Shown in pieces: positions 5,168-64,000 of a stretch of 64,000 nucleotides of DNA (position 1 is the first letter of the stretch; each line of letters starts with the position of its first letter). Position numbers and translations under genes: made by a program. A model generated the notes under the pieces. The model saw only the letters and a list, made by a program, of their open reading frames with translations. It made no database searches and was not told where the DNA came from. This stretch comes from an uncultured bacterium (GTDB lineage Bacteria > Bacteroidota > Bacteroidia > Sphingobacteriales > Sphingobacteriaceae): assembly GCA_903828245.1 (NCBI GenBank), contig CAIKLP010000081.1, forward strand, positions 1 through 64,000, written 5' to 3'.

Positions 5168-6535
5168 TTATTCTAGGGCTGTTAAATTATCTTCTTCGTC
5201 GACTAAATTTTTATCCAGTTGCTTGCTTGCTTTGGCGCCTAATTTTTTTAGGTTTTCTACACTCGAAGTTAAACTTCCGCGTCCGGTATGTAATTTACCA
5301 AATGCCTCTTCGTAGGTTTTTTGTGTATTAGAAATTTGTGAGCCAATTCTTTTCATGTCTTCGGTAAAGCCCACAAACTTATCGTATAAAGCACCCGCTT
5401 TGGTGGCAATTTCGATCGCATTTTTTGATTGTTGTTCTTGTTTCCAAATAGAAGCCACTGTTTTTAAAGTAGCAAAAAGCGTAGAGGGTGTAACCAATAC
5501 TACTCGCTTCGACCAAGCAAAATCAAATAAATCTTGTGCATGTTGAATGGCAATACTAAACGACGATTCAATAGGAACAAACAGGAGCACATAATCTGGC
5601 GAATTAATGCCGTATAAATCGTGGTAGTTTTTATTGCTCAAACCCGTGATGTGTGTTTTAATAGAAAGCAAATGTTCCTTGATAAATTTATCTCTACCCT
5701 CTTCTGTGTTTTCGTTTACTAATTTTTCGTAAGCAACCAAAGAAACTTTTGCGTCGATGACAATGTGTTTGTTATCGGGTAAATTAATAATTACATCGGG
5801 CTGAAACCTATTGCCATCTTCGTCTTTCAGGTTTAAGCCTTTGCCTTGTAGGGTATAATTCTGACCTTCAATTAATCCACTAGATTCTAAAATTCTTTCT
5901 AAAACCAATTCTCCCCAATTCCCTTGTTTTTTACTATCGCCCTTTAAAGCGTTAGTTAAATTGGTTGCTTCGACCGAAATCTTATTCGTAAATTTCATGA
6001 GCTCTTCGATAGAACCCTTCAGTGTGTTGCGTTCTGCGGCTTCGTTTTTATAAGAGCGATCTACTTTCTCTTCAAAATCTTTGATGCGATCTTTCAGCGG
6101 ACTTAAAATAACATCTAAATTATTTTTATTCTGCTCTGTAAATTTATGTGATTTTTCGTCTAAAATTTTATTGGCAATGTTCTCAAACTCTTTGGTTAGT
6201 GTGCTTTGAAGCGCTTCCAATTCGACTTTCTTTTCTTCTAATTTTTCTCTTTGTGTGCGAAATGCTTCTTCCGCTTTTACAATTCTAATATTTACCGCAT
6301 TTAATTCTGCGTCTTTACTATCAACTGTGTTTTTATATTGCTCTTTTTCGTTGGCGAGCAATTCTAATTGCTTGAGTTGTTCTTGTAAAGTAGCAGTTAA
6401 GCCGGCCTTTTCTTTTTCGAGTTGCATTTCTTTTTGAAAATCCAATGGGTTCAGCCCCGATTTATTGCGCATAAACAGCACCCCAAGCAAGGCGCCAAGT
6501 GCTAAGCCGATGATTAAAAATAGCATACTAGTCAT
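5168..6535 (-). CDS. rmuC: DNA recombination protein RmuC
   Basis: RmuC is an inner-membrane-anchored protein with a PD-(D/E)XK-like nuclease fold that limits DNA inversions at short inverted repeats in E. coli. The 455-residue product has a single N-terminal membrane helix (residues ~1-20), a long Glu/Lys-rich coiled coil (~35-130) and the RmuC domain (~150-430), with QGNWGELVLERILESSGL, the Asp/Lys core IVIDAKVSL, and YVLLFVPIESSF all recognisable. Length is normal for the family. It is divergent from ffh. A perfect TAnnTTTG element ends only 4 bp before the ATG, so the transcript may have almost no leader; a second in-frame ATG is at codon 4. Confidence 0.93.
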   Translation of the reverse strand: MTSMLFLIIGLALGALLGVLFMRNKSGLNPLDFQKEMQLEKEKAGLTATLQEQLKQLELLANEKEQYKNTVDSKDAELNAVNIRIVKAEEAFRTQREKLEEKKVELEALQSTLTKEFENIANKILDEKSHKFTEQNKNNLDVILSPLKDRIKDFEEKVDRSYKNEAAERNTLKGSIEELMKFTNKISVEATNLTNALKGDSKKQGNWGELVLERILESSGLIEGQNYTLQGKGLNLKDEDGNRFQPDVIINLPDNKHIVIDAKVSLVAYEKLVNENTEEGRDKFIKEHLLSIKTHITGLSNKNYHDLYGINSPDYVLLFVPIESSFSIAIQHAQDLFDFAWSKRVVLVTPSTLFATLKTVASIWKQEQQSKNAIEIATKAGALYDKFVGFTEDMKRIGSQISNTQKTYEEAFGKLHTGRGSLTSSVENLKKLGAKASKQLDKNLVDEEDNLTALE

Positions 6536-6539
6536 TTAA

Positions 6540-6547
6540 CAAAAATA
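6540..6547 (-). promoter_or_regulatory. candidate -7 element for rmuC
   Basis: On the minus strand this reads TATTTTTG, a perfect TAnnTTTG. No TTG is found at the right distance upstream; only TTC/TTTTT. The ATG at 6535 lies 4 bp past the element, which would give a leaderless or nearly leaderless mRNA. Confidence 0.35.
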
Positions 6548-6599
6548 ACAATTTAGCTTGCTTCCTTTCGAAAAACTTTTCAGTTCTTGTGCTATTTAG

Positions 6600-6607
6600 T
6601 AGCTTTG
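6600..6607 (+). promoter_or_regulatory. candidate -7 element for ffh
   Basis: TAGCTTTG is a perfect TAnnTTTG, 24 bp before the ffh ATG at 6632. A T-rich stretch 20 bp upstream (6577-6579) stands in for the -33 TTG. Confidence 0.35.
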
Positions 6608-6631
6608 CAAGCATTAATAACAAAACAGAAT

Positions 6632-7969
6632 ATGTTTGATAATTTAAGTGATAAGTTAGATAGGGCTTTTAAGATTTTAAAGGGTCAAGGAAAAATTACC
6701 GAAATCAACGTGGCAGAAACGGTTAAAGAGGTGCGTAAAGCCCTTTTAGACGCCGATGTAAATTTTAAGATTGCCAAAGATTTTACCGATCGCGTAAAAG
6801 AAAAAGCATTTGGCCAAAGCGTACTGACATCGGTATCTCCGGGGCAGTTAATGATTAAAATTGTCAACGATGAATTGGTTGCCTTAATGGGTGGCGAAAA
6901 ATCGGAACTGAATTTAAAATCGAATCCAGCTATTATATTAATTGCAGGTTTACAAGGATCTGGTAAAACCACCTTTTCTGGGAAACTAGCTAATTATTTA
7001 AAATCAAAAGGGAAATCTCCATTTTTAGTGGCTGCCGATGTGTATCGTCCGGCAGCAATAGATCAATTAAAAATATTGGGTGCGCAAATAGACGTGCCAG
7101 TATTTACCGATTACGAAAGTAAAAACCCCGTTAAGATTGCACAAGAGGCCATCAAACAAGCAAAGGCAGCAGGACACAATGTGATTATTATTGACACTGC
7201 GGGTCGATTAGCTGTTGATGAGCAAATGATGGACGAAATTGCCAGTGTAAAATCGAGTGTGCAACCACACGAAATTTTATTTGTGGTAGATGCCATGACG
7301 GGACAAGATGCGGTAAATACAGCCAAAGCATTTAACGACCGTTTAGATTTTGACGGAGTGGTGTTAACAAAATTAGATGGCGATACCAGGGGCGGTGCCG
7401 CTTTAACCATTCGAGAAGTGGTTAAAAAGCCCATCAAATTTGTCGGAACGGGCGAAAAACTAGAAGCCATCGATGTGTTTTATCCAGAGCGAATGGCTTC
7501 GAGGATATTGGGCATGGGCGATGTGGTTTCGTTGGTGGAGCGTGCGCAAGAACAATTTGATGCAGAAGAATCTGCTCGTATTCAAAAGAAAATTAGAAAA
7601 AATCAATTTGATTTTGGCGATTTCTTGAATCAGTTACAACAAATCAAAAAAATGGGTAACCTAAAAGATTTGATGGGTATGATTCCGGGAGTTGGCAAAA
7701 TGGTGAAAGACATTGACATTTCGGACGATGCCTTTAAACATATTGAAGCGATCATTCATAGCATGACACCGCTAGAAAGAGAAAGTCCAGAACTAATTAA
7801 TGGCACCCGACGCAAAAGGATTGCGATGGGAAGTGGCAGAAGCATCGAAGAAGTTAATAAGTTGCTCAAGCAATTTGATGACATGAAAAAAATGATGAAA
7901 CAGTTCTCTGGCGGCGGAAATCCCTTAAAAATGTTAAAAAACATGCCACAAGGCGGAATTCCTAGATAA
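6632..7969 (+). CDS. ffh: signal recognition particle GTPase Ffh
   Basis: Ffh binds 4.5S RNA and hydrophobic signal sequences at the ribosome and delivers nascent membrane proteins to FtsY at the inner membrane. The 445-residue product shows the N-domain (1-~90), the G-domain with G1 GLQGSGKTT (106-114), DTAGR (188-192) and TKLDGDTRGG (from 246), and a methionine-rich M-domain (~300-445) ending in MKMMKQF and MLKNMPQGG. The ATG at 6632 gives the usual MFDNLSDKL start; the frame is open further upstream, but that part is not conserved and holds the promoter. It stands upstream of the rpsP cluster, which has its own promoter candidate. Confidence 0.97.
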   Translation: MFDNLSDKLDRAFKILKGQGKITEINVAETVKEVRKALLDADVNFKIAKDFTDRVKEKAFGQSVLTSVSPGQLMIKIVNDELVALMGGEKSELNLKSNPAIILIAGLQGSGKTTFSGKLANYLKSKGKSPFLVAADVYRPAAIDQLKILGAQIDVPVFTDYESKNPVKIAQEAIKQAKAAGHNVIIIDTAGRLAVDEQMMDEIASVKSSVQPHEILFVVDAMTGQDAVNTAKAFNDRLDFDGVVLTKLDGDTRGGAALTIREVVKKPIKFVGTGEKLEAIDVFYPERMASRILGMGDVVSLVERAQEQFDAEESARIQKKIRKNQFDFGDFLNQLQQIKKMGNLKDLMGMIPGVGKMVKDIDISDDAFKHIEAIIHSMTPLERESPELINGTRRKRIAMGSGRSIEEVNKLLKQFDDMKKMMKQFSGGGNPLKMLKNMPQGGIPR

Positions 7970-34807: not shown

Positions 34808-36418
34808 ATGAATAATGAATTTGGATTGAGAGCAAGCAATGCAAGTGTTGCTACTTTAGGGTTAGCAAATGTTGCGGCAGCTTATTGGAATATGACACCC
34901 GCAGAATTAGTGGAAGAAGCAATTGTTAGAGGCGAGGGCAGACTAGTTGATTCTGGCGCATTGGCTGCAGACACTGGCGAGTTCACCGGAAGATCACCTA
35001 AAGATAGATTTATTGTTAAAGACGCCATTACCGAAAATGCAGTTTGGTGGGGAGATGTAAACATTCCATTTGATAGCCAAAAATTTGATTTATTATACCA
35101 TAGAGTTTGCGCCTATTTAGCGGGCAAAGAAATTTTTGTAAGAGATGCTTATGCTTGTGCGGATCCAGAATACCGCACCAATATTCGTGTAGTTACCGAG
35201 CAAGCGTATCATAATATTTTTGCAAACAATTTATTTTTGCGTCCAAGCAAAGAAGAAGTATTAAACTTCTCGCCAGAATGGACCATCGTTAACGCCCCTG
35301 GTTTTAAAGCCGATCCAGCCATTGATGGAACACGCCAACACAATTTCGCTATTTTAAATTTTACCAAAAAAATTATTTTAATTGGCGGAACAGGTTATAC
35401 AGGTGAAATTAAAAAAGGAATTTTCGGTGTATTAAATTTTGTTTTACCACATGATAAAAATGTGTTGTCGATGCATTGTTCGGCAAACATTGGCAAAGAT
35501 GGCGACACAGCTATTTTCTTTGGTTTATCGGGTACAGGTAAAACCACTTTATCTGCCGATCCAAACAGAGGCTTAATTGGTGACGATGAACACGGATGGG
35601 CAACAGATACCGTATTTAATTTAGAAGGCGGTTGTTATGCAAAATGCGTAGACTTAACCAAAGAAAAAGAACCAGAAATTTGGGGGGCTATTAAATTCGG
35701 CGCTTTACTAGAAAATATTGTTTGTTACGAGGAAACCAGCACCGTAGATTTTTCAAATATTGCTAAAACAGAAAACACCCGAGTTGCTTATCCAATCCAT
35801 CACATAGCCAATGCGGTAGAACCTTCTATAGCAAGTAATCCTAAAAATATTTTCTTTTTAACTTGTGATGCATATGGCGTTTTGCCACCCATTTCAAAAT
35901 TAGATGCAGGCCAAGCGATGTATCATTTTATTTCTGGTTATACTGCAAAAGTAGCTGGAACAGAAGCAGGAGTTACCGAACCACAAACTACTTTCTCTGC
36001 TTGTTTTGGAAAAGTATTTTTACCATTACATCCGGCAAAATATGCAGAAATGTTGGGTAAGAAAATGAAAGAACACCAAGTAAATGTTTGGTTAGTGAAT
36101 ACCGGTTGGACCGGAGGTGCTTATGGCACCGGCTCAAGAATGAAATTAAGTTATACGCGCGCCATGATTACTGCAGCATTGAACGGAGCACTTGCTGGTG
36201 TTGAGTTTGAGCAGCATCCAGTTTTTGGATTGCAAATGCCTACTACCTGTCCAAATGTGCCTTCAGAAATTTTAAATCCAAGAAATACTTGGAGCAACGC
36301 AGCAGAGTACGATCAAAAAGCGAATGAATTAGCCCAAAAATTTATCAAGAATTTCGAACAATATGCCGATGGTGTTTCTGCCGAAATAGTAGCAGCAGCA
36401 CCGGTCGCAAAATCATAA
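34808..36418 (+). CDS. pckA: phosphoenolpyruvate carboxykinase (ATP)
   Basis: PckA converts oxaloacetate and ATP to phosphoenolpyruvate, the entry to gluconeogenesis from TCA intermediates. The 536-residue product has TGEFTGRSPKDRFIV (from 56), the substrate region DGTRQHNFAILNF, the kinase P-loop GLSGTGKTTLSADPNR (239-254), GDDEHGWATDTVFNLEGGCYAK and VNTGWTGGAYGTGSRM. Length is typical of the ATP-dependent enzyme. The DUF3127 gene follows after 23 bp. Confidence 0.97.
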   Translation: MNNEFGLRASNASVATLGLANVAAAYWNMTPAELVEEAIVRGEGRLVDSGALAADTGEFTGRSPKDRFIVKDAITENAVWWGDVNIPFDSQKFDLLYHRVCAYLAGKEIFVRDAYACADPEYRTNIRVVTEQAYHNIFANNLFLRPSKEEVLNFSPEWTIVNAPGFKADPAIDGTRQHNFAILNFTKKIILIGGTGYTGEIKKGIFGVLNFVLPHDKNVLSMHCSANIGKDGDTAIFFGLSGTGKTTLSADPNRGLIGDDEHGWATDTVFNLEGGCYAKCVDLTKEKEPEIWGAIKFGALLENIVCYEETSTVDFSNIAKTENTRVAYPIHHIANAVEPSIASNPKNIFFLTCDAYGVLPPISKLDAGQAMYHFISGYTAKVAGTEAGVTEPQTTFSACFGKVFLPLHPAKYAEMLGKKMKEHQVNVWLVNTGWTGGAYGTGSRMKLSYTRAMITAALNGALAGVEFEQHPVFGLQMPTTCPNVPSEILNPRNTWSNAAEYDQKANELAQKFIKNFEQYADGVSAEIVAAAPVAKS

Positions 36419-36940: not shown

Positions 36941-36948
36941 TATTTTTG
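36941..36948 (+). promoter_or_regulatory. candidate -7 element of the exbB-tonB operon
   Basis: TATTTTTG is a perfect TAnnTTTG; a T-run (36919-36925) lies at the -33 distance but there is no TTG. It lies in the 203-bp gap before exbB, 80 bp from the ATG. Nothing else is evident in that gap. Confidence 0.4.
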
Positions 36949-37028: not shown

Positions 37029-37871
37029 ATGGCAAACGAAGCAAAAGTAGCTGCTGCTGCAAAAGTTGAAAAAGGGAATGGATTGAGTACTTTTTTCGCA
37101 TCATTTACTATTCCACTATGTTTATTGGTGGGTATCTTAATTTTCACATTTGTGATGGGTGCGCCTTCAAACTTTGAAGGAAATGATCCAGCGAATCACC
37201 CAGTTCAAGAAGGTGCAGGACACGTATTAGGTTTGATCCACAAAGGTGGTTATATCGTACCTATTTTATTGTCATTGGTTTTAATGAACATTACATTTTC
37301 TATTGAGCGTTACTTAACAATTGGTAAAGCACAAGGAAAAGGAAATGCAGAAGCATTTGTTAGAAAAATCAGAGCAAAATTAGATCAAAATGATGTAGAA
37401 GGTGCAATTAAAGAGTGTGATGAACAAAGAGGTTCTGTTGCCAATGTTATGCGTTCTACGCTTTTAAAATACAAAGAAATGCAAGGCTTAACTACTATGC
37501 CTGTAGATCAAAGAATCAATTCTATTCAAAAAGAAATTGAAGAGTCGGTAACTTTAGAATTACCAGGTTTAGAGAAAAACTTAGTGGTAATTGCTACCAT
37601 GGCTTCGGTTTCTACCTTGATCGCGTTATTAGGAACAGTATTGGGTATGATTAAAGCGTTCTCTGCATTAGCAACCGCTGGTTCTCCAGATTCAGTAGCA
37701 TTAGCAACTGGTATTTCTGAGGCCTTAATTAATACAGCTTTAGGTATTGGTAACTCTGCTATTGCAACAATCATGTACAATGTATTTACGAGTAAAATCG
37801 ATGCAATCACTTATGCTATCGACGAAGCGGGTTACAGTATTGTACAAACATTTGCTGCTAAAAACAGATAA
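37029..37871 (+). CDS. exbB: MotA/TolQ/ExbB proton channel family protein
   Basis: ExbB forms the pentameric proton channel that energises TonB. The 280-residue product has a first membrane helix at ~22-44, a second near 75-92, a cytoplasmic helical part (QGKGNAEAFVRKIRAKLDQNDVEGA) and two C-terminal helices in the conserved block LPGLEKNLVVIATMASVSTLIALLGTVLGMIKAFSALA and GISEALINTALGIGNSAIATIMYN. It heads an operon exbB-exbD-exbD-tonB, the usual Bacteroidota form, with an additional N-terminal helix and linker compared with E. coli ExbB. Confidence 0.94.
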   Translation: MANEAKVAAAAKVEKGNGLSTFFASFTIPLCLLVGILIFTFVMGAPSNFEGNDPANHPVQEGAGHVLGLIHKGGYIVPILLSLVLMNITFSIERYLTIGKAQGKGNAEAFVRKIRAKLDQNDVEGAIKECDEQRGSVANVMRSTLLKYKEMQGLTTMPVDQRINSIQKEIEESVTLELPGLEKNLVVIATMASVSTLIALLGTVLGMIKAFSALATAGSPDSVALATGISEALINTALGIGNSAIATIMYNVFTSKIDAITYAIDEAGYSIVQTFAAKNR

Positions 37872-37911
37872 TAATTACCCAGAATAATTTTAACAATAAA
37901 TAAAATATACA

Positions 37912-38511
37912 ATGTCAAAAGTAAAGGTTCCTCGTAAGAGTACAGTAGTAGACATGACGGCAATGACCGACGTGGCATTCTTGCTGCTTACGTTCTTTAT
38001 GTTGGCTACCAAGTTTAAACCTGATGAGCCTGTGACGGTGACCACACCTTCCTCGATCTCAGAAATAAAGTTACCAGAAACAGACATTTTATTATTAACA
38101 ATAGACAAAGATTCGCGTGTGTTTTTTGCAATGGATGGGGAGTCGAACAGGTTATCATTGTTAGATAAAATGGCTGAGAAATATCAACTTACTTTTAACG
38201 ACAAACAGAAAAAAGAATTTTCTTTGTTGAGTTCATTCGGCGTGTCGGTTAAAAATTTAGGACAATATTTAGACCTAGATGCAGAAGGCAGAAAAAAATT
38301 CGCACAAACTGGAATTCCTTCGGATTCTACTAACAACGAATTAGCTGATTGGGTATTGCAAGCACGATTTACAAATAAGGCTTTAAGGGTTGCTGTTAAA
38401 GGTGATCAAAATGCAGGCTTTCCTGTAGTAAAGCAAGTGATCGCAACTTTGCAAGATAAAAAAGTAGACCGTTTCAACTTTATTACAAGCTTGGAAAAAG
38501 CTGAGAATTAA
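37912..38511 (+). CDS. exbD: biopolymer transport protein ExbD (first copy)
   Basis: ExbD works as a dimer inside the ExbB ring. The 199-residue product has a basic N-terminus, one membrane helix with the essential proton-carrying Asp20 (DMTAMTDVAFLLLTFFML) and a periplasmic domain with a ~60-residue insertion compared with E. coli ExbD (141 residues). Two different exbD genes in a row is normal in this phylum. The gap to exbB is 40 bp and to the second exbD 22 bp. Confidence 0.94.
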   Translation: MSKVKVPRKSTVVDMTAMTDVAFLLLTFFMLATKFKPDEPVTVTTPSSISEIKLPETDILLLTIDKDSRVFFAMDGESNRLSLLDKMAEKYQLTFNDKQKKEFSLLSSFGVSVKNLGQYLDLDAEGRKKFAQTGIPSDSTNNELADWVLQARFTNKALRVAVKGDQNAGFPVVKQVIATLQDKKVDRFNFITSLEKAEN

Positions 38512-38533
38512 TAATTCATAAAAAAAATTAGCG

Positions 38534-39169
38534 ATGTCAGAGATAGAAAGTGGCGGTGGCGGTGGAGCCCATAAAGGCAAAAAGAAAGGTAAAAAAATGT
38601 CGACAAGGGTGGATTTTACACCCATGGTTGACTTAGGTTTTTTATTGATCACTTTCTTTATGTTAACCACTTCCATGAATAAGCCGCAAACCATGGAAAT
38701 CAATATGCCAGTTAAGGATAAAAACTTAACCGAAGATCAACAAACTAAAGTAAAAGCATCTCAAACTTTGACGGTGTTGCTTACTAAAGAAAATAAAGTT
38801 GTTTATTATTTTGTTGATGAAAAAACTGGTGAGCCAGGCCCTACAACGGTTACAGACTATGGTAAAGATGGCATCCGTAAAGTTTTATTACAAGAAAACA
38901 AAATTAGAAATGCAAGCGTAGACTCTATTGGAATTTACAAAGGGCAATTACAAACCAATAAAATTACAGAAGAAGATTTCAGAGCAAAAGTATATGCCAT
39001 TAAATCTTTTAAAGATGGTTTAATTGTAATTATTAAGGCAGACGATAATTCGAGATACGGAAATTTAGTTGACATCTTAGATGAAATGAATATCTGTAAT
39101 ATTGGTCGTTATGCAATTGTAGATATTACGCCAATTGATTTAGCGTTATTAACTAAAACCACATTATAA
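38534..39169 (+). CDS. exbD: biopolymer transport protein ExbD (second copy)
   Basis: The 211-residue protein has a Gly-rich and Lys-rich N-terminal tail (SGGGGGAHKGKKKGKK), one membrane helix with the essential Asp33 (DFTPMVDLGFLLITFFML) and a periplasmic domain. It diverges strongly from the first ExbD outside the helix, so the two may form a heterodimer or serve different partners; that is inference. tonB follows after 21 bp. Confidence 0.94.
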   Translation: MSEIESGGGGGAHKGKKKGKKMSTRVDFTPMVDLGFLLITFFMLTTSMNKPQTMEINMPVKDKNLTEDQQTKVKASQTLTVLLTKENKVVYYFVDEKTGEPGPTTVTDYGKDGIRKVLLQENKIRNASVDSIGIYKGQLQTNKITEEDFRAKVYAIKSFKDGLIVIIKADDNSRYGNLVDILDEMNICNIGRYAIVDITPIDLALLTKTTL

Positions 39170-39190
39170 TTCTATAAAAGAAATTAGCAA

Positions 39191-39985
39191 ATGGCAGGTA
39201 AAATAGATTTATATGATGGCAAATGGATAGAGCTCGTATTCCGTGGTAGAAACCAGGAGTATGGTGCTTTTGAAATTCGTAAAAGCTATCCAAAACATGC
39301 ATTTTTAGGCATCGTTTTAGCAATAGTTGCTTTTACTTTGTCGGTAAGTGCACCATTAATTATTCGTTTAATATCGAATGCACTTCCAGACGAGAAAATA
39401 GTAAAGGTAGACCAAACCAATGTTTTAGAGGATGTGCCGCCGGTTGATAAAAACCAACCTACGCCACCACCTCCACCACCTCCACCTTTAAAGTCGACGA
39501 TTAAATTTACCCCTCCGGTAATTAAACCCGATGATCAGGTGCCTGATGAACCACCTCCCATTCAAGAAGAATTAAAAAAGGTAGATGCAGGTTTAACAAC
39601 TGTTCAAGGTGATCCAAACGCAGAAGTAGATTTAAGTGGTTTAGATGGAGATATTACTGGTGAAGAAGCACCATTTATTTCGGTTGAGCAAATGCCAGAA
39701 TTTCCAGGAGGAGGCGAAGGCGCTTTAATCGCTTACATTGCAAAGAATACAAAATACCCAGCTATGGCTAGGGAAAATAATATTGAAGGAACTGTGTTTA
39801 TCTCTTTCGTTGTAGAAAAAGATGGCAGCGTTTCTGATGTAAAAATATTAAGAGGTATTGGCGGAGGATGTGACGAAGAGGCTAAGCGTGTAATTAAAAA
39901 CTTGCCAAACTTTGCACCTGGTAGACAAAACGGAAGACCAGTGCGTGTACAGTTTAACGTACCTGTGAAATTTAAATTGATGTAA
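39191..39985 (+). CDS. tonB: energy transducer TonB
   Basis: TonB passes the proton-gradient energy from ExbBD to outer-membrane receptors such as the one at the start of this window. The 264-residue product has a membrane helix at ~36-60 preceded by a 35-residue cytoplasmic part, a proline-rich periplasmic spacer (eight prolines in a row at 92-99, PPVIKPDDQVPDEPPP) and the C-terminal TonB domain (~185-264) with YPAMARENNIEGTVFISFVVEKDGSV and the end VRVQFNVPVKFKL. Confidence 0.95.
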   Translation: MAGKIDLYDGKWIELVFRGRNQEYGAFEIRKSYPKHAFLGIVLAIVAFTLSVSAPLIIRLISNALPDEKIVKVDQTNVLEDVPPVDKNQPTPPPPPPPPLKSTIKFTPPVIKPDDQVPDEPPPIQEELKKVDAGLTTVQGDPNAEVDLSGLDGDITGEEAPFISVEQMPEFPGGGEGALIAYIAKNTKYPAMARENNIEGTVFISFVVEKDGSVSDVKILRGIGGGCDEEAKRVIKNLPNFAPGRQNGRPVRVQFNVPVKFKLM

Positions 39986-39990
39986 TTAAA

Positions 39991-40230
39991 ATGAATAAAC
40001 CAGCGGATCTATGGTCCATGCGAGATAAAGTGATTTTCGTATTTGGAATAATTATGTCGCTTGTTTATTTAGTAATCGGATTGAGTTTACTCAGCATAGG
40101 AAATTTCTTAGCTGAATATGATAAAATAGTAAAGATTGGAATAGGCTGTATTTTTATAGCCTATTCTTTTTTTAGATTGTGGCGATCTTTAAACAATTGG
40201 AAAAACAGTAACAATGAAGACGAAGCATAA
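39991..40230 (+). CDS. small two-helix membrane protein in the tonB operon
   Basis: The 79-residue product has two hydrophobic stretches (about 13-35, VIFVFGIIMSLVYLVIGLSLLS, and 45-62, VKIGIGCIFIAYSFFRLW) and a short charged C-terminus. I do not recognise a named family. It starts 5 bp after tonB and overlaps the PstS-like gene by 17 bp, so it is surely in the operon. A function in the TonB complex or in assembly is possible but unproven. Confidence 0.75.
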   Translation: MNKPADLWSMRDKVIFVFGIIMSLVYLVIGLSLLSIGNFLAEYDKIVKIGIGCIFIAYSFFRLWRSLNNWKNSNNEDEA

Positions 40231-41149
40231 ATTTTTATTATTTGCCCTAATTGGAATCTGCTTTTCTGCTTGCTCAAATAATAAAGATAAAAACGGAAAA
40301 GAGTTGAGCAGCACTACGAGCGGTGAAGTAAAAATTGCCGCAGACGAAACGCTACTTTCTATCATCGATGCACAAGAACAAGTTTTCGAAACGATTTATC
40401 CTAAAGCAAACGTAAACGCAGTTTATTTGCCAGAGTTAGACATGATGGATTTGTTTATCAAAGACAGCATCTCTTTGGTGATTGCCGCAAGAAGCTTAAA
40501 CCCTTCTGAAATAGCCTATTTTAAAGGGAAACACAGCTATACGCAAAATAAAATAGCTAGCGACGGCATTGCGCTAATCGTAAATAATCAAAACACCGAT
40601 ACTACTTTTACTTTAGCGCAAGTGCGTGAAATTATGCGTGGAAAATTTACAGATTGGAATACACTCGACAAAAAATCTACACTTACAAAAATCAATCTTG
40701 TGTTTGATAATAAGAATAGCGGAACCGTTCGATACATGGCCGAATTAGTGGGTCAAAAATCGATACCGGGTTACGCATTAAAAACAAATGAAGAAGTAAT
40801 TAAATATGTTAGCGAAAATAAAAATGCTTTAGGTATTGTAGGTGTAAATTGGATTAGCGACAAAGACGATCCAAAGGCCATGAAATTTAAAAGCGGTATT
40901 AATGTAGTGGGCATTATGGGCGACCCTGGCGATTTGGGAGATGATTATTATTACCAACCCTACCAAGCTTACTTTGCCACTAAACAATACCCTTTATTAC
41001 GCGAAATATACAGTATTAGCAGAGAGCCTAGAGCAGGCCTTGCCACTGGCTTTGCGTCGTTTATATCAAGCGATAAAGGCCAAAAAATTATTTTAAAATC
41101 TGGCTTATTGCCAGCCAACGCACCTATCAGAATTATACAAACAAATTAA
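40214..41149 (+). CDS. PstS-like phosphate-type substrate-binding lipoprotein
   Basis: The 311-residue protein has a lipoprotein signal (FALIGICFSAC, Cys20) and a type II periplasmic binding domain like PstS: KIAADETLLSIIDAQEQVFETIYPKANV, a region around FTLAQVREIMRGKFTDWN, SGTVRYMAELVG, and TGFASFISSDKGQKIILKSGLLP. No ABC transporter genes are near. It lies instead in the exbBD-tonB operon, overlapping the upstream gene by 17 bp and followed by a TPR gene after 11 bp. So it may sense or bind phosphate, or a similar anion, for TonB-linked uptake rather than for an ABC importer; this is inference from context. Confidence 0.85.
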   Translation: MKTKHKFLLFALIGICFSACSNNKDKNGKELSSTTSGEVKIAADETLLSIIDAQEQVFETIYPKANVNAVYLPELDMMDLFIKDSISLVIAARSLNPSEIAYFKGKHSYTQNKIASDGIALIVNNQNTDTTFTLAQVREIMRGKFTDWNTLDKKSTLTKINLVFDNKNSGTVRYMAELVGQKSIPGYALKTNEEVIKYVSENKNALGIVGVNWISDKDDPKAMKFKSGINVVGIMGDPGDLGDDYYYQPYQAYFATKQYPLLREIYSISREPRAGLATGFASFISSDKGQKIILKSGLLPANAPIRIIQTN

Positions 41150-41160
41150 AAAAAATTAGC

Positions 41161-42774
41161 ATGAATCGAAGTTTAAAAAATGCTTGGCTTGTTGCCATCA
41201 TAGTAGTTTCCACTTTTACCATTGTAAAAGCGCAAGATGCAGTAAAAGGAATTAGGGCTATTGAAGTAGAGCAATTTGAAAAAGCAAAAAGAATTTTCAG
41301 TACTTTAATTCTAGCAAATCCAAGCAATGCCGACAACTATTATTATTTAGGAAAAGCTTATTATAAGCAAGATAAAATTGATTCGGCCAAGTTTTATTTT
41401 CAACAAGGTTTGGCCGCAAACCCTAACTCCACTTTAAACATAGTAGGTTTGGGTTCGGTAGATTACGACTTAGGAAATGTAACAGAAGCTAAAGTAAATT
41501 TCGATAAAGCAATTGCTATTTCTTTAGGCAAAGATTTTCAAACCTTTATTAGTATTGGCGAAGTCTACCGCGAATTAGGCGTTCGTAATTTCGAAGAGGC
41601 ATTAAGTTATTTCTTAAAAGCAAAAGCGATTAACCAAAAGAGCCCCGAATTATTAGTAGCCATTGGTGATGTATATATGGAGCAAGCCAACGGTTCGGAA
41701 GCGGTTAAATATTACACAGAAGCACTTAAGTTAAACCCTAACTACGTGAACGCTTATGTGCGTACAGGAAAGCTTTGGACTAGGTCTTTGAATTACGCGG
41801 AAGCGAAAATTGCTTTCGATAAAGCGATTAAAATAGACTCTACTTTTGCACCAATTTATAGAGAATACGGCGAATTAGAATTAACGGCTAAACATTTTGA
41901 AAGCGCGGTTGAAAATTATAAAAAATATTTATTCCTTACCGATAAATCTTTGAATTCGCAATTGCGTTATGCTAAATTTTTATTTTACGGAAAACAATTT
42001 CAAGAGTCTATCGACATCATTAAACAAATTGTAGCGAAAGATTCTAGCGATTATATCAACTACCGTTTATTAGGTTATTCATCTTACGAAATCAAAGATT
42101 ACAAAGCAGGATTAACTGCTATGAATAAATTTTTCTCGATGAATCCTGCTAAAATTTTACCGCAAGATTACGCTTACTTAGGTAAATTGCAAGTTAAAAA
42201 TAAATTAGACTCATTGGGCGTAAACACCATTACACGCGCCATTGCGCTCGATACCACTAGTAGAGATTTATACGGAGATTTATCCGATGCTTATTTCTCG
42301 ATGAAACAATATAAACTGTCTGCAGAAACCTACGAATTAAAATTATTGAACATTAAACCAACCGCAGTAGATTATTTTAATTTAGGTAGAAAATATTATT
42401 TCGGACTAGCATTTGCAAAATCAGATTCTGCTTTTGCCAAACTGTTGGAATTGAATGCAGAATATAAACCAGCTTATTTATTTCGCGCAAGAAACAATGT
42501 GCAATTAGATAATGTAGATAAAATCAATGATGGTTTAGCTAAACCATTTTACGAAAAGTTTATTGAATTGACCATTGCAGATCCAAAATTAGACCTAAAG
42601 AAATCGGGTAAAGAATTGATTGAGGCTTATAAATATTTGGGCGATTATAATTACACCGTTTTGAAAGACAATGCGGCTGCCATTGGTAATTTCCAAAAAA
42701 TCATCGAAATTGACCCTAACGACAAAGACGCTAAATTGAATTTAGAGGGATTAATCAAAGAGTCAAAGAAATAA
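41161..42774 (+). CDS. tetratricopeptide-repeat protein, exported
   Basis: The 537-residue protein has a signal peptide or N-terminal anchor (~8-24, ending VKAQ) and about ten TPR units along its length (NADNYYYLGKAYYKQDKIDSA, SPELLVAIGDVYMEQANGSEAVKYYTEAL, PNYVNAYVRTGKLW and others), with a last repeat ending IIEIDPNDKDAKLNL. It would be a periplasmic scaffold. It is the last gene of the exbB operon. The nuoA start is only 36 bp downstream with no terminator, so read-through into nuo is possible. Confidence 0.9.
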   Translation: MNRSLKNAWLVAIIVVSTFTIVKAQDAVKGIRAIEVEQFEKAKRIFSTLILANPSNADNYYYLGKAYYKQDKIDSAKFYFQQGLAANPNSTLNIVGLGSVDYDLGNVTEAKVNFDKAIAISLGKDFQTFISIGEVYRELGVRNFEEALSYFLKAKAINQKSPELLVAIGDVYMEQANGSEAVKYYTEALKLNPNYVNAYVRTGKLWTRSLNYAEAKIAFDKAIKIDSTFAPIYREYGELELTAKHFESAVENYKKYLFLTDKSLNSQLRYAKFLFYGKQFQESIDIIKQIVAKDSSDYINYRLLGYSSYEIKDYKAGLTAMNKFFSMNPAKILPQDYAYLGKLQVKNKLDSLGVNTITRAIALDTTSRDLYGDLSDAYFSMKQYKLSAETYELKLLNIKPTAVDYFNLGRKYYFGLAFAKSDSAFAKLLELNAEYKPAYLFRARNNVQLDNVDKINDGLAKPFYEKFIELTIADPKLDLKKSGKELIEAYKYLGDYNYTVLKDNAAAIGNFQKIIEIDPNDKDAKLNLEGLIKESKK

Positions 42775-42810: not shown

Positions 42811-43182
42811 ATGGGAAATTCATTTATACCAACCGATTACTTCCCAATCGTATTGCAATTTATTGCAGCCATTGGCTTTGTTGCAGTTACCATGTTAGCT
42901 ACTCATTACATTGGCCCTAAGCGTAAAACTGCCGATAAATTAGCCAATTTTGAGTGCGGAATTGAGCAACAAGGCGATGCCAGGTCTCCCATTTCTGTGA
43001 AGTATTTTTTGGTTGCCATCTTGTTTGTATTGTTCGATGTAGAGGTCATATTTATGTACCCATGGGCAGTCAATTTTAGAGAGTTTGGAATCACTGGTTT
43101 TTTAGAAATGTTCACCTTTGTGGGCTTCCTTTTAGCCGGCTTCTTTTACCTATTAAAAAAGGGTGCTTTAGACTGGGAATAA
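42811..43182 (+). CDS. nuoA: NADH-quinone oxidoreductase subunit A
   Basis: NuoA is a small three-helix subunit of complex I at the junction of the membrane and peripheral arms. The 123-residue product has three hydrophobic segments, the loop KTADKLANFECGIEQQGDARSPISVKYFLVAILFVLFDVEVIFMYPWAV, and a final helix. It opens a complete nuoA-N operon. The following gap to nuoB (100 bp) is the longest in the operon and has a hairpin. Confidence 0.96.
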   Translation: MGNSFIPTDYFPIVLQFIAAIGFVAVTMLATHYIGPKRKTADKLANFECGIEQQGDARSPISVKYFLVAILFVLFDVEVIFMYPWAVNFREFGITGFLEMFTFVGFLLAGFFYLLKKGALDWE

Positions 43183-62586: not shown

Positions 62587-63240
62587 TTAATAATAAATTC
62601 GGAGTACCACTCTTCTATTAAAAGCCCTGTTTTTATCTATTGGTTTACCAATAGCATCTTTATTTGGTTTAATAGGTTTGGTGTCGCCATATCCAGAAGC
62701 CTTCAACCTTGCGGGCTCAACGCCTCTATCAATTAAATATTGAATGGTTTGGGAGGCTCTAGAAGTGCTGAGCTCCCAATTGGATTTATAGAAATCGTTT
62801 GAAATAGGTACGTCATCTGTATGACCTTCCACATCTATTTTAAAATTTTTAATATCAGAACTAGTAATGGCACTCACTACTCGGTCAACTACACTTTTCC
62901 CATTGTCTAATAATTCTGCTTCGCCCGAATTAAACATACCCTTGCTCAGTACATTCATTTTAATACCATCGGCATCTAATTTGATATCCACTAAACTATC
63001 CGCTTTTTCTTGCGCCAACACAGAGTCCAGTGTTTCTTTAATTTGCGTTAAACTAGACTTTACTTCTTTTTGATTCAGTTTTTCTTTTACCGAATTATTT
63101 ACTTCAGACCAAGCGGTTTGGTCTATGGTAGATACAGAAACAATCAATACGAAAAAGGCCAATAAATTGGTAATGGTATCGGCATAGGTAATCAGCCAAT
63201 TCTCATTTTCTTCTTCGAAATGAATTTTTTTCCTGGCCAT
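62587..63240 (-). CDS. motB: MotB/OmpA-domain stator-like protein
   Basis: The 217-residue protein has one N-terminal helix with the proton-carrying Asp21 (WLITYADTITNLLAFFVL), a ~70-residue helical linker and a C-terminal OmpA/MotB peptidoglycan-binding domain (KIDVEGHTDDVPISN, NWELSTSRASQTIQYLIDRG, RLKASGYGDTKPI, NRAFNRRVVL). In flagellated cells MotB is the stator anchor; here no flagellar genes are seen. The pair with MotA is a proton channel of unknown mechanical function. It starts 5 bp after motA. Confidence 0.9.
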   Translation of the reverse strand: MARKKIHFEEENENWLITYADTITNLLAFFVLIVSVSTIDQTAWSEVNNSVKEKLNQKEVKSSLTQIKETLDSVLAQEKADSLVDIKLDADGIKMNVLSKGMFNSGEAELLDNGKSVVDRVVSAITSSDIKNFKIDVEGHTDDVPISNDFYKSNWELSTSRASQTIQYLIDRGVEPARLKASGYGDTKPIKPNKDAIGKPIDKNRAFNRRVVLRIYY

Positions 63241-63245
63241 TCCGA

Positions 63246-64000
63246 TTACTTCTTATTCTCCGCTTTTAATTGCTTGATAGTGTACGATCGATCTAAATAG
63301 GTTTGTAATTTATCCTTAATAAATAGCGGTGATTTATTTTCGGCAATCAGTTGCACGCCTTCTAACATTAACTCTTCGCGAATTTTATTATAGTCGGCAC
63401 TTAACATAATTTTTTTAGAAACCGGATAAAAGAATAAATGGGTAAAAGTTACACCGTATAAAGTAACCAATAAACCGGTTGCTAAACCTGGTCCAATTTT
63501 AGAAGGGTCATCTAAGCTCGAAAGCATATAAACCAATCCAAATAAGGTACCAAACATACCAAAAGCCGGACCCGAGTTGCCCATATTTTTTAATACTTCC
63601 GAAACTTTATGGGTGTTCGAATAATTTTCGTCAATACTGGTTTCGCCAATTACCCTTACTTCGTCTATCGAATAATTTGTACTAATCAAAGAAAATAAAT
63701 AGGAAGTAAAATCGTGTTTTTGTTTGTCTTGAATGGTGCGTAAAAATTCTAATCTATTTGTTTTGTATTCGTTACTCCAAGTAACAATAGATTCGATGTC
63801 TTTTTGTAAAACCTTTTGCGTATTAATAGACTGATGAAAAGTTTGTCCCATTTTGGCAAAAGCCGAACGCATCAATTTACTTGGATAAATAATAAAGGCG
63901 TTGGTTAACAAACCTCCCATTACAATTAAAAAACTGGGCAAGTCTAAAAATCGGTTGATAAATAAATATGGAAAATATTCTTTTAATGGAATAATGCCAA
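63246..64000 (-). CDS. motA: MotA/TolQ/ExbB proton-channel protein, 5' end missing
   Basis: The frame has no stop up to the window end; residues just before the first candidate start (TTG 63941) read FINRFLDLPSFLIVMGG, which matches the MotA N-terminal region (DLPS..IV.GG), so the gene continues outside. The visible ~250 residues have a cytoplasmic loop (KDIESIVTWSNEYKTNRLEFL) and the paired last helices, MGNSGPAFGMFGTLFGLVYMLSSLDDPSKIGPGLATGLLVTLYGVTFTHLFFYPVSKKI, as in MotA. It lacks a long cytoplasmic tail. It is paired with motB and is the first visible gene of a four-gene minus-strand run. Confidence 0.9.
   Translation of the reverse strand, partial: GIIPLKEYFPYLFINRFLDLPSFLIVMGGLLTNAFIIYPSKLMRSAFAKMGQTFHQSINTQKVLQKDIESIVTWSNEYKTNRLEFLRTIQDKQKHDFTSYLFSLISTNYSIDEVRVIGETSIDENYSNTHKVSEVLKNMGNSGPAFGMFGTLFGLVYMLSSLDDPSKIGPGLATGLLVTLYGVTFTHLFFYPVSKKIMLSADYNKIREELMLEGVQLIAENKSPLFIKDKLQTYLDRSYTIKQLKAENKK

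Follow-up and report, generated by a model that had tools for sequence, protein, structure and literature searches.

The window analysed here, a 64,000-nucleotide stretch of DNA from an uncultured member of the Sphingobacteriaceae, carries seven open reading frames within positions 37029-42774, all on the plus strand and spaced by 40, 22, 21, 5, -17 and 11 bp. By coordinates, the initial annotation was exact in describing seven same-strand genes with gaps of at most 40 bp and a 17-bp overlap between the 79-aa gene and the PstS-like gene. The first gene, exbB (37029..37871; 280 aa), encodes a MotA/TolQ/ExbB-type proton channel (PF01618 MotA_ExbB, 96 bits in Pfam) and is followed by two exbD genes, exbD1 (37912..38511; 199 aa; PF02472 ExbD, 61.4 bits) and exbD2 (38534..39169; 211 aa; PF02472, 81.2 bits). 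The transmembrane aspartate, which is the proton residue of ExbD proteins, is present in both, namely as Asp20 in ExbD1 (invariant in an alignment of 17/17 orthologs) and within the sequence PMVDLGF in ExbD2. The product of tonB (39191..39985; 264 aa; PF03544 TonB_C, 77 bits) combines an N-terminal anchor and a proline-rich spacer, both assigned from the sequence, with the TonB_C domain. Hence, ExbB, ExbD, TonB_C, a transmembrane anchor and a proline-rich spacer, the hallmarks of a TonB-ExbB-ExbD system, are found together in this one locus.

The last three genes are less familiar. A short gene (39991..40230, plus strand) encodes a 79-aa protein with two transmembrane segments and a conserved YGxFRxxR motif, for which Pfam and family profile searches returned no family above cut-off. 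It overlaps the gene of a PstS-fold lipoprotein (40214..41149, plus strand; 311 aa; PF12849 PBP_like_2, 116.7 bits) with a lipobox-type cysteine at position 20, and the operon closes with a TPR protein (41161..42774, plus strand; 537 aa) that matched many Pfam TPR families and was modelled as an all-helical repeat array behind an apparent signal peptide (AlphaFold2, pLDDT 95). No function assigned to the PstS-like, 79-aa or TPR genes was found in the open-licence literature. When compared with a same-genus relative (L038), all seven reading frames gave low dN/dS ratios (0.016-0.155); the 79-aa frame was the weakest constrained, reaching 0.36 against a second relative (L036), a value derived from only about five differences. 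No Rfam element was detected between positions 36400 and 43400, and sigma-70-type promoters, which are uninformative for Bacteroidota, occurred about as expected (24 found, 24.9 expected). A nuo operon starts 36 bp past the TPR gene, and co-transcription of the two is possible.

The gene block recurs in relatives. Six core genes were found in strict order in 43/46, 67/80 and 24/40 loci of three Bacteroidota samples, with contig ends and true Pst loci counted in, the second being the best 80 of 548 relatives; several sampled regions were picked by match score rather than randomly, and at least four loci are shared by two samples (L044/L123, L042/L100, L046/L156 and L043/L106). The order is kept over many families, also outside the class, and since it recurs across the phylum it does not reflect chance; the extra genes are thus conserved with exbBD-tonB. 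Among evaluable loci, a denominator that omits those with too little flank as well as nine second or weak loci excluded beforehand (L075-L083), the 79-aa gene lies upstream of the PstS-like gene in 44/45, 70/79 and 30/39 loci, while it went undetected in 7 of 80 best-matching named loci that have the other six genes. The TPR gene directly follows the PstS-like gene in 46/46, 77/78 and 31/39 evaluable loci, which makes this pair the tightest unit of the block. Comparison of ORF lengths revealed no clear fusion of either gene.

Some loci carry the pair, with or without the two-transmembrane gene, apart from exbBDD (e.g. L204, L211, L214, L215, L071 and L104), so that contact with the motor may be indirect. 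Several of these loci (all but the last), like the tightness of the pair, also speak for a different scenario, in which the PstS-like and TPR proteins jointly serve another periplasmic process and share only their regulation with the motor. We consider this unlikely, as the pair accompanies the motor in most evaluable loci and the ExbD1 of the operon is missing from all 27 genomes tested in which no clear PstS-like ortholog was present, where matches to its profile reached 46.4 bits at most, in a score comparison that draws on two different models. These 27 comprised the first 20 no-match genomes listed in a scan of 296 genomes, five misses of another search and two genomes with weak PstS-like matches (G053 and G058); in the scan itself, 131/296 genomes had PstS-like matches, a count that includes true PstS and, with at most seven candidates scored per genome, possibly misses some. 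Likewise, profiles of the operon TonB and PstS-like protein matched none of 10 ExbB/ExbD loci from ten of the 27 genomes. Judged by gene content, motor and accessory genes are kept together across Bacteroidota and are missing together where tested.

The model of the lipoprotein (AlphaFold2, pLDDT 94) displays the two-lobed PBP fold and matched 4gd5_A in the PDB (Z 28.0, rmsd 2.0, 238 aligned residues), and Cys20 is invariant in 52/52 aligned orthologs, with a simple lipobox pattern being recognised in 123/150. Taken together with its membership in PF12849, the fold could indicate a true receptor that captures phosphate or a phospho-compound imported by a TonB-dependent receptor, and Arg93, Asp117 and Ser169 are indeed common to the operon protein and all nine non-operon paralogs compared. 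However, the cleft positions, assigned via alignment to 4gd5 and the fold matches, are occupied by acids (D44, E45, E74 and D165): position 74, a serine in phosphate-bound 4gd5, is glutamate in 110/129 orthologs, and position 165, an arginine in that structure, is aspartate in 113/129. None of the nine paralogs has an acid at 74 or 165; as Arg165 occurs in only 3/9 of them and Asp45 in 3/9, it is chiefly through the acids at 44, 74 and 165 that the operon protein stands apart from PstS. Here, we assume which of the aligned PstS positions are the phosphate-binding ones.

Several further results weigh against a phosphate receptor. The protein scored 92.1 bits with TIGR02136, below the cut-off of 206.6 bits, while two Pst-linked paralogs from relatives reached 294.1 and 271.1 bits. 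In the host genome (99.45% complete), it is the single PF12849 protein, PstC had no match (the control search was positive in 14/14 genomes, 12 of them above cut-off), and a PiT-type carrier can supply phosphate uptake. A phosphate receptor therefore appears very improbable. The lipoprotein shares fold and Pfam family with the PstS of Pst transporters, yet it differs in its changed ligand-aligned residues, its sub-threshold NCBIfam score, a genome without a PstC match and the presence of TonB in its operon. The 'phosphate-type' binding proposed in the initial annotation is accordingly unsupported, and phosphate limitation and phosphate binding are poor first tests; its expectation that the protein does not pair with a distant pst operon held in a search that covered PstC. 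With a lone PF12849 protein, no PstC match and a PiT-type carrier, a phosphate transport partner for the lipoprotein was discarded. A viral origin was also rejected, there being no relative among 14 pattern matches.

Within the 79-aa gene, a hairpin resembling an intrinsic terminator (40138..40167, plus strand; 13-bp stem, 4-nt loop, z -4.9) is directly followed by six T (40168-40173). Scanning the region for terminators gave 8 such sites, against 4.6 (sd 2.2) expected. Across 134 intact operons, 14 sense-strand sites lay past the main tonB and ahead of the PstS-like gene, including three in which the hairpin separates two tandem tonB genes, compared with two between exbB and exbD1 and none elsewhere up to the end of the TPR gene. 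The covariation signal of the hairpin stems from two distinct sequences and was equalled by 124/500 shuffles. The last genes may be expressed at a lower level because of the hairpin; sites between tonB and the PstS-like gene are also what a separate pathway merely co-transcribed with the motor could display.

In Bacteroidota, the uptake of glycans, haem and B12 depends on TonB. Of two TonB_C matches in the host genome, the operon TonB is the only anchored protein, the other having a signal peptide and, by eye, no motor anchor, and the genome gave 14 Plug-domain matches. A Tol-Pal-like envelope machine must be considered nonetheless, in which the main task of the motor would be to pull, at division, on the cell wall or the outer membrane, while the lipoprotein and TPR protein would take the place of Pal/TolB and CpoB. 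A lipoprotein and a motor-adjacent TPR protein do recall Pal and CpoB, and TolB_N (PF04052) had no match in the host genome; as the control search was positive in one Bacteroides genome, this absence need not mean that the operon replaces TolB. But the operon TonB has a canonical TonB_C domain, Pfam detected no peptidoglycan-binding domain in the lipoprotein, and a separate TolQ-TolR-TolA-like locus (L246, with names assigned partly by eye) is present in the genome. In addition, Riemerella TonB2, which precedes the same kind of gene, is needed for good growth on iron and haemin (PMC4446302). We thus give rather little credence to an envelope machine.

As the extra genes stay with exbBD-tonB in relatives and the search for PstC gave no sign of a pst operon elsewhere, the locus is most naturally read as encoding a binding protein, a TPR scaffold and a TonB motor that would form one assembly. 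The periplasmic assembly suggested initially is partly supported: neither of the two findings named as refuting it was made, whereas a phosphate-type binding protein is unsupported. With confidence somewhat above even, we favour a single TonB motor of elaborate composition, from which the TonB-dependent receptors of the organism would probably draw most of their energy, with the last genes encoding accessory subunits, the lipoprotein being a non-phosphate adaptor and the hairpin a terminator. In such a motor, TonB would be driven by ExbB with an ExbD1/ExbD2 pair, and the two-helix protein, lipoprotein and TPR protein would position or gate periplasmic TonB. The cleft of the lipoprotein would no longer bind phosphate, its acidic residues instead holding another ligand or a partner side chain, so that the protein would act as a structural or sensing adaptor rather than a transport receptor; if the accessory subunits prove necessary, this would plainly exemplify a transport receptor turned motor part. 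Termination within the 79-aa gene would reduce transcription of the last genes and yield fewer accessory than motor subunits. In many Bacteroidota, one gene block appears to combine an outer-membrane uptake motor with extra proteins, including a phosphate-binding-like protein with a rebuilt site. A bolder, tentative and rather doubtful extension would posit a motor type found throughout Bacteroidota, with a heterodimeric ExbD, an acidified former phosphate-binding protein that senses and gates or aims TonB via the TPR scaffold, and a terminator (in the 79-aa gene in this lineage, past tonB in others) that sets the motor-to-adaptor ratio.

Work on TonB has mostly been framed by the three-protein complex of E. 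coli. Among the systems closest to the present operon, BT_2664-2668 of Bacteroides thetaiotaomicron are listed as consecutive genes for a substrate-binding protein, for ExbD proteins and for ExbB; their iron stimulon values lie between -3.1 and -2.7, a sign we take as lower expression in low iron (PMC10434189). The passage gives expression data for these genes and assigns them no function, and they are putative orthologs of the operon. The exbB2-exbD21-exbD22-tonB2 genes of Riemerella anatipestifer have as their next neighbour a gene with a phosphate-binding annotation, probably an ortholog of the PstS-like gene (PMC4446302). There, TonB2 is described as a four-gene system serving mainly iron uptake in its own host, and the next gene, by which we compare the two loci, is treated as flank. 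In E. coli, the receptor OMhemR of Riemerella was energised by the TonB1 set but not by the four-gene TonB2 clone, a result that the authors read as receptor specificity, OMhemR being energised by TonB1 only; Serratia receptors were energised by neither set (PMC4446302). If accessory subunits were required, their absence would offer a testable reason for the inactivity of the TonB2 set in E. coli beside that reading; given the specificity reading and the failure of both sets with Serratia receptors, it is only one explanation. The Vibrio TonB2 system (TtpB2, TtpC2, ExbB2, ExbD2, TonB2, TtpD2) provides the functional parallel: in V. vulnificus, the product of the first gene, TtpB2, and that of the last, the TPR protein TtpD2, are each reported as essential for that TonB system (PMC6957404). 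The present operon differs by its two ExbDs, two-transmembrane protein and PstS-fold lipoprotein, and DUF3450 (PF11932), the TtpB family, had no match in the host genome. Yet both are TonB-ExbB-ExbD operons with extra genes, of which a TPR gene comes last. The last three genes of the present operon most likely encode accessory subunits of the TonB motor, as the Ttp proteins are in Vibrio.

The seven genes at 37029-42774 lie on the plus strand with the spacing that the initial annotation had claimed, as confirmed from the window sequence. Pfam places ExbB, two ExbD, TonB_C, PBP_like_2 and TPR repeats among their products. Family profile searches returned no family above the cut-off for the 79-aa protein; it is a separate family with a YGxFRxxR signature in an alignment of 31 sequences, and judged by eye it would form a two-helix hairpin. 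The AlphaFold2 model of the TPR protein (pLDDT 95) consists of helical repeats throughout, behind an apparent signal peptide. About 80 bp 5' of exbB, TATTTTTG (36941-36948) fits the Bacteroidota -7 promoter motif. At the other end, a nuoA gene, named by eye, starts at 42811, 36 bp after the TPR gene, with further Nuo-like genes up to 46093; nuoA also comes next after the TPR gene in numerous relatives from that taxonomic family.

Gene order was counted with profiles of all seven operon proteins. The six core genes (all except the 79-aa gene) occur on one strand and in strict order in 43/46 loci of relatives, 67/80 named loci (the best 80 of 548 relatives) and 24/40 loci of a phylum sample that was chosen across a score range and takes in other classes as well as true Pst loci. 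Among loci of the three samples with all six on one strand, none had a differing order. When only loci with enough flank were considered, the six lay within set distances in 41/42, 59/64 and 23/36, respectively, and the TPR gene directly followed the PstS-like gene in 46/46, 77/78 and 31/39 loci. All seven genes were matched in 61 of these best 80 loci, one of which (L149) carries the motor genes on the opposite strand, and only the 79-aa gene was missing in seven (titles e.g. Bacteroides, Phocaeicola, Paludibacter). Within the genus, dN/dS is low for the operon genes, with constraint weakest on the 79-aa gene. A second tonB follows the first inside the operon in L099, L105, L109, L115 and other Hymenobacter and Pontibacter loci. 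As a protein query, the PstS-like protein found matches in 54/60 relatives, weak ones counted, and a near-identical contig is known (uncultured bacterium isolate KT6_bin-626, 99% for this protein). Phylum-wide, at least 131/296 genomes had a match at E <= 1e-20; this count lumps orthologs together with true PstS proteins, and at most seven candidates were scored per genome. The gene block is conserved across much of the Bacteroidota, and the original observation was thus right, even understated.

The model of the PstS-like lipoprotein is confident (AlphaFold2, pLDDT 94), and its closest solved structure is the phosphate-bound 4gd5_A (Z 28.0, rmsd 2.0, 238 aligned). In the alignment to this structure, however, D44, E45, E74 and D165 stand opposite Ser, Thr, Ser and Arg of 4gd5. 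Among 129 operon-context orthologs, D44 is conserved in 123, E45 in 114, E74 in 110 and D165 in 113, as are R93 (126) and S169 (125). Nine non-operon paralogs carry Ser at position 44 (all nine), Ser (six) or Asp (three) at 45, Thr (seven) or Ser (two) at 74, and Ala (five), Arg (three) or Pro (one) at 165. Since Arg165 is not universal in them, the contrast lies in the acid at 44, 74 and 165. PstC, above the cut-off, was the next gene for 6/6 paralogs tested; of the three others, L083 stops at the contig end, and a gene other than PstC lies downstream in L080 and L081. On this alignment, the cleft-aligned positions are conserved with their chemistry turned acidic, which makes phosphate binding unlikely. 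As a putative assembly, the initially proposed cooperation of a phosphate-type binding lipoprotein and a TPR scaffold with a TonB motor holds in outline, but not with regard to phosphate. The lipoprotein Cys20 is invariant (52/52 aligned orthologs). Acidic residues following the lipobox cysteine are a surface-export signal of lipoproteins. In a simple count over 150 orthologs, at least two such residues came immediately after the cysteine in just 10 of the 123 with a recognised lipobox, so an export signal of this kind is mostly lacking.

Does the operon act as a unit? Of 27 genomes that lack a clear PstS-like ortholog, 25 had an ExbD match of some kind. Their best score against the operon's ExbD1 profile was 46.4 bits, as opposed to 217-297 bits for the best exbD1 match in those named loci (best 80 of 548 relatives) that have one, L154 excepted (158 bits, gene cut by the contig end), yet this contrast rests on two different models and is strongest within the class, because the model used for the named loci gives 80-139 bits for operons from other classes. 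At 10 ExbB/ExbD loci from ten of the 27 genomes, which are other ExbB-ExbD sets, neither the operon TonB nor the PstS-like profile found a match. This joint absence supports the operon as a putative single functional unit. On the other hand, 2TM-PstS-TPR or PstS-TPR genes apart from exbBDD in several loci (e.g. L204, L211, L214, L215, L071, L104) count against a strict unit.

Within the 79-aa coding sequence, we observed a plus-strand terminator-like hairpin at 40138-40167 (13-bp stem, 4-nt loop), followed by six T to 40173. The scanned region holds 8 terminator-like sites versus 4.6 (sd 2.2) expected; the 71 nt around the hairpin have a folding z of -4.9, and 13-bp stems arose in 3/1000 synonymous shuffles. 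All 30 hairpin bases are unchanged in four relatives of this genus, and 29/210 positions differ in the rest of the gene between L038 and the window. In L039, from another genus, two double and two single changes leave the stem intact; with two distinct sequences only, stem covariation was not significant (124/500 shuffles). Under looser criteria, 23/140 79-aa genes contain a terminator-like site versus 8.3 expected, several of them from the window's own genus. Across 134 intact operons, 16 sense-strand sites lie inside the operon, 14 of them between the main tonB and the PstS-like gene; the coding sequences of the six core genes contain none. A further 32 lie past the TPR gene. The reverse strand has 23 sites inside the operon, 2 of which fall in the main tonB-to-PstS-like segment. 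The 14 are not alike: five are inside the 79-aa gene (four of one genus, plus L039), two sit at the start of this gene, three in the post-tonB spacer, three between tandem tonB genes and one after a second tonB. For the operon mechanism we infer that a hairpin after the motor genes might cause partial termination and thereby lower accessory gene expression.

The host genome (1.95 Mb, 99 contigs, estimated 99.45% complete) encodes three ExbD proteins, two of them in the operon, and two TonB_C proteins, the second of which, by eye, carries a signal peptide but lacks a motor anchor. Also present are 14 Plug-domain matches and one phosphate carrier of the PiT type; PstC, TolB_N and DUF3450 had no match in this genome. 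A TolQ-TolR-TolA/TonB-like trio lies apart, before folC, at 5553-7506 of another host locus, L246 (ExbB and ExbD matches, other names by eye). From this content we infer that the operon is the leading candidate for the host's main TonB system. A 910-aa TPR-like protein is encoded upstream of the trio. Near the window end, a MotA-like gene (PF01618) and, by eye, a MotB/OmpA-like gene (62587-63941, minus strand) represent a further ion-driven motor.

Related systems have been described. In Riemerella anatipestifer, a gene annotated as phosphate-binding comes after the TonB2 set, iron uptake relies mainly on TonB2, and TonB2 is more important than TonB1 for haemin (PMC4446302). In E. coli, the Riemerella receptor OMhemR was energised by the TonB1 set but not by the cloned exbB2-exbD21-exbD22-tonB2 genes; Serratia receptors were served by neither set, and E. 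coli iron uptake by TonB1 only (PMC4446302). The authors interpret these results as receptor specificity, and describe as not understood that TonB1 works in E. coli yet is seemingly dispensable for iron at home (PMC4446302). The absent accessory set would be a further explanation for the TonB2 failure. An iron stimulon table (PMC10434189) lists B. thetaiotaomicron BT_2664-2668 (substrate-binding protein, ExbD, ExbB) with values of -3.1 to -2.7. In Flavobacterium psychrophilum, the TonB-ExbBD system belongs to the genes with high expression in every sample (PMC9723704). The Vibrio vulnificus TonB2 system, in which neither TtpB2 nor the TPR protein TtpD2 is dispensable (PMC6957404), is a direct precedent for putative accessory TonB subunits.
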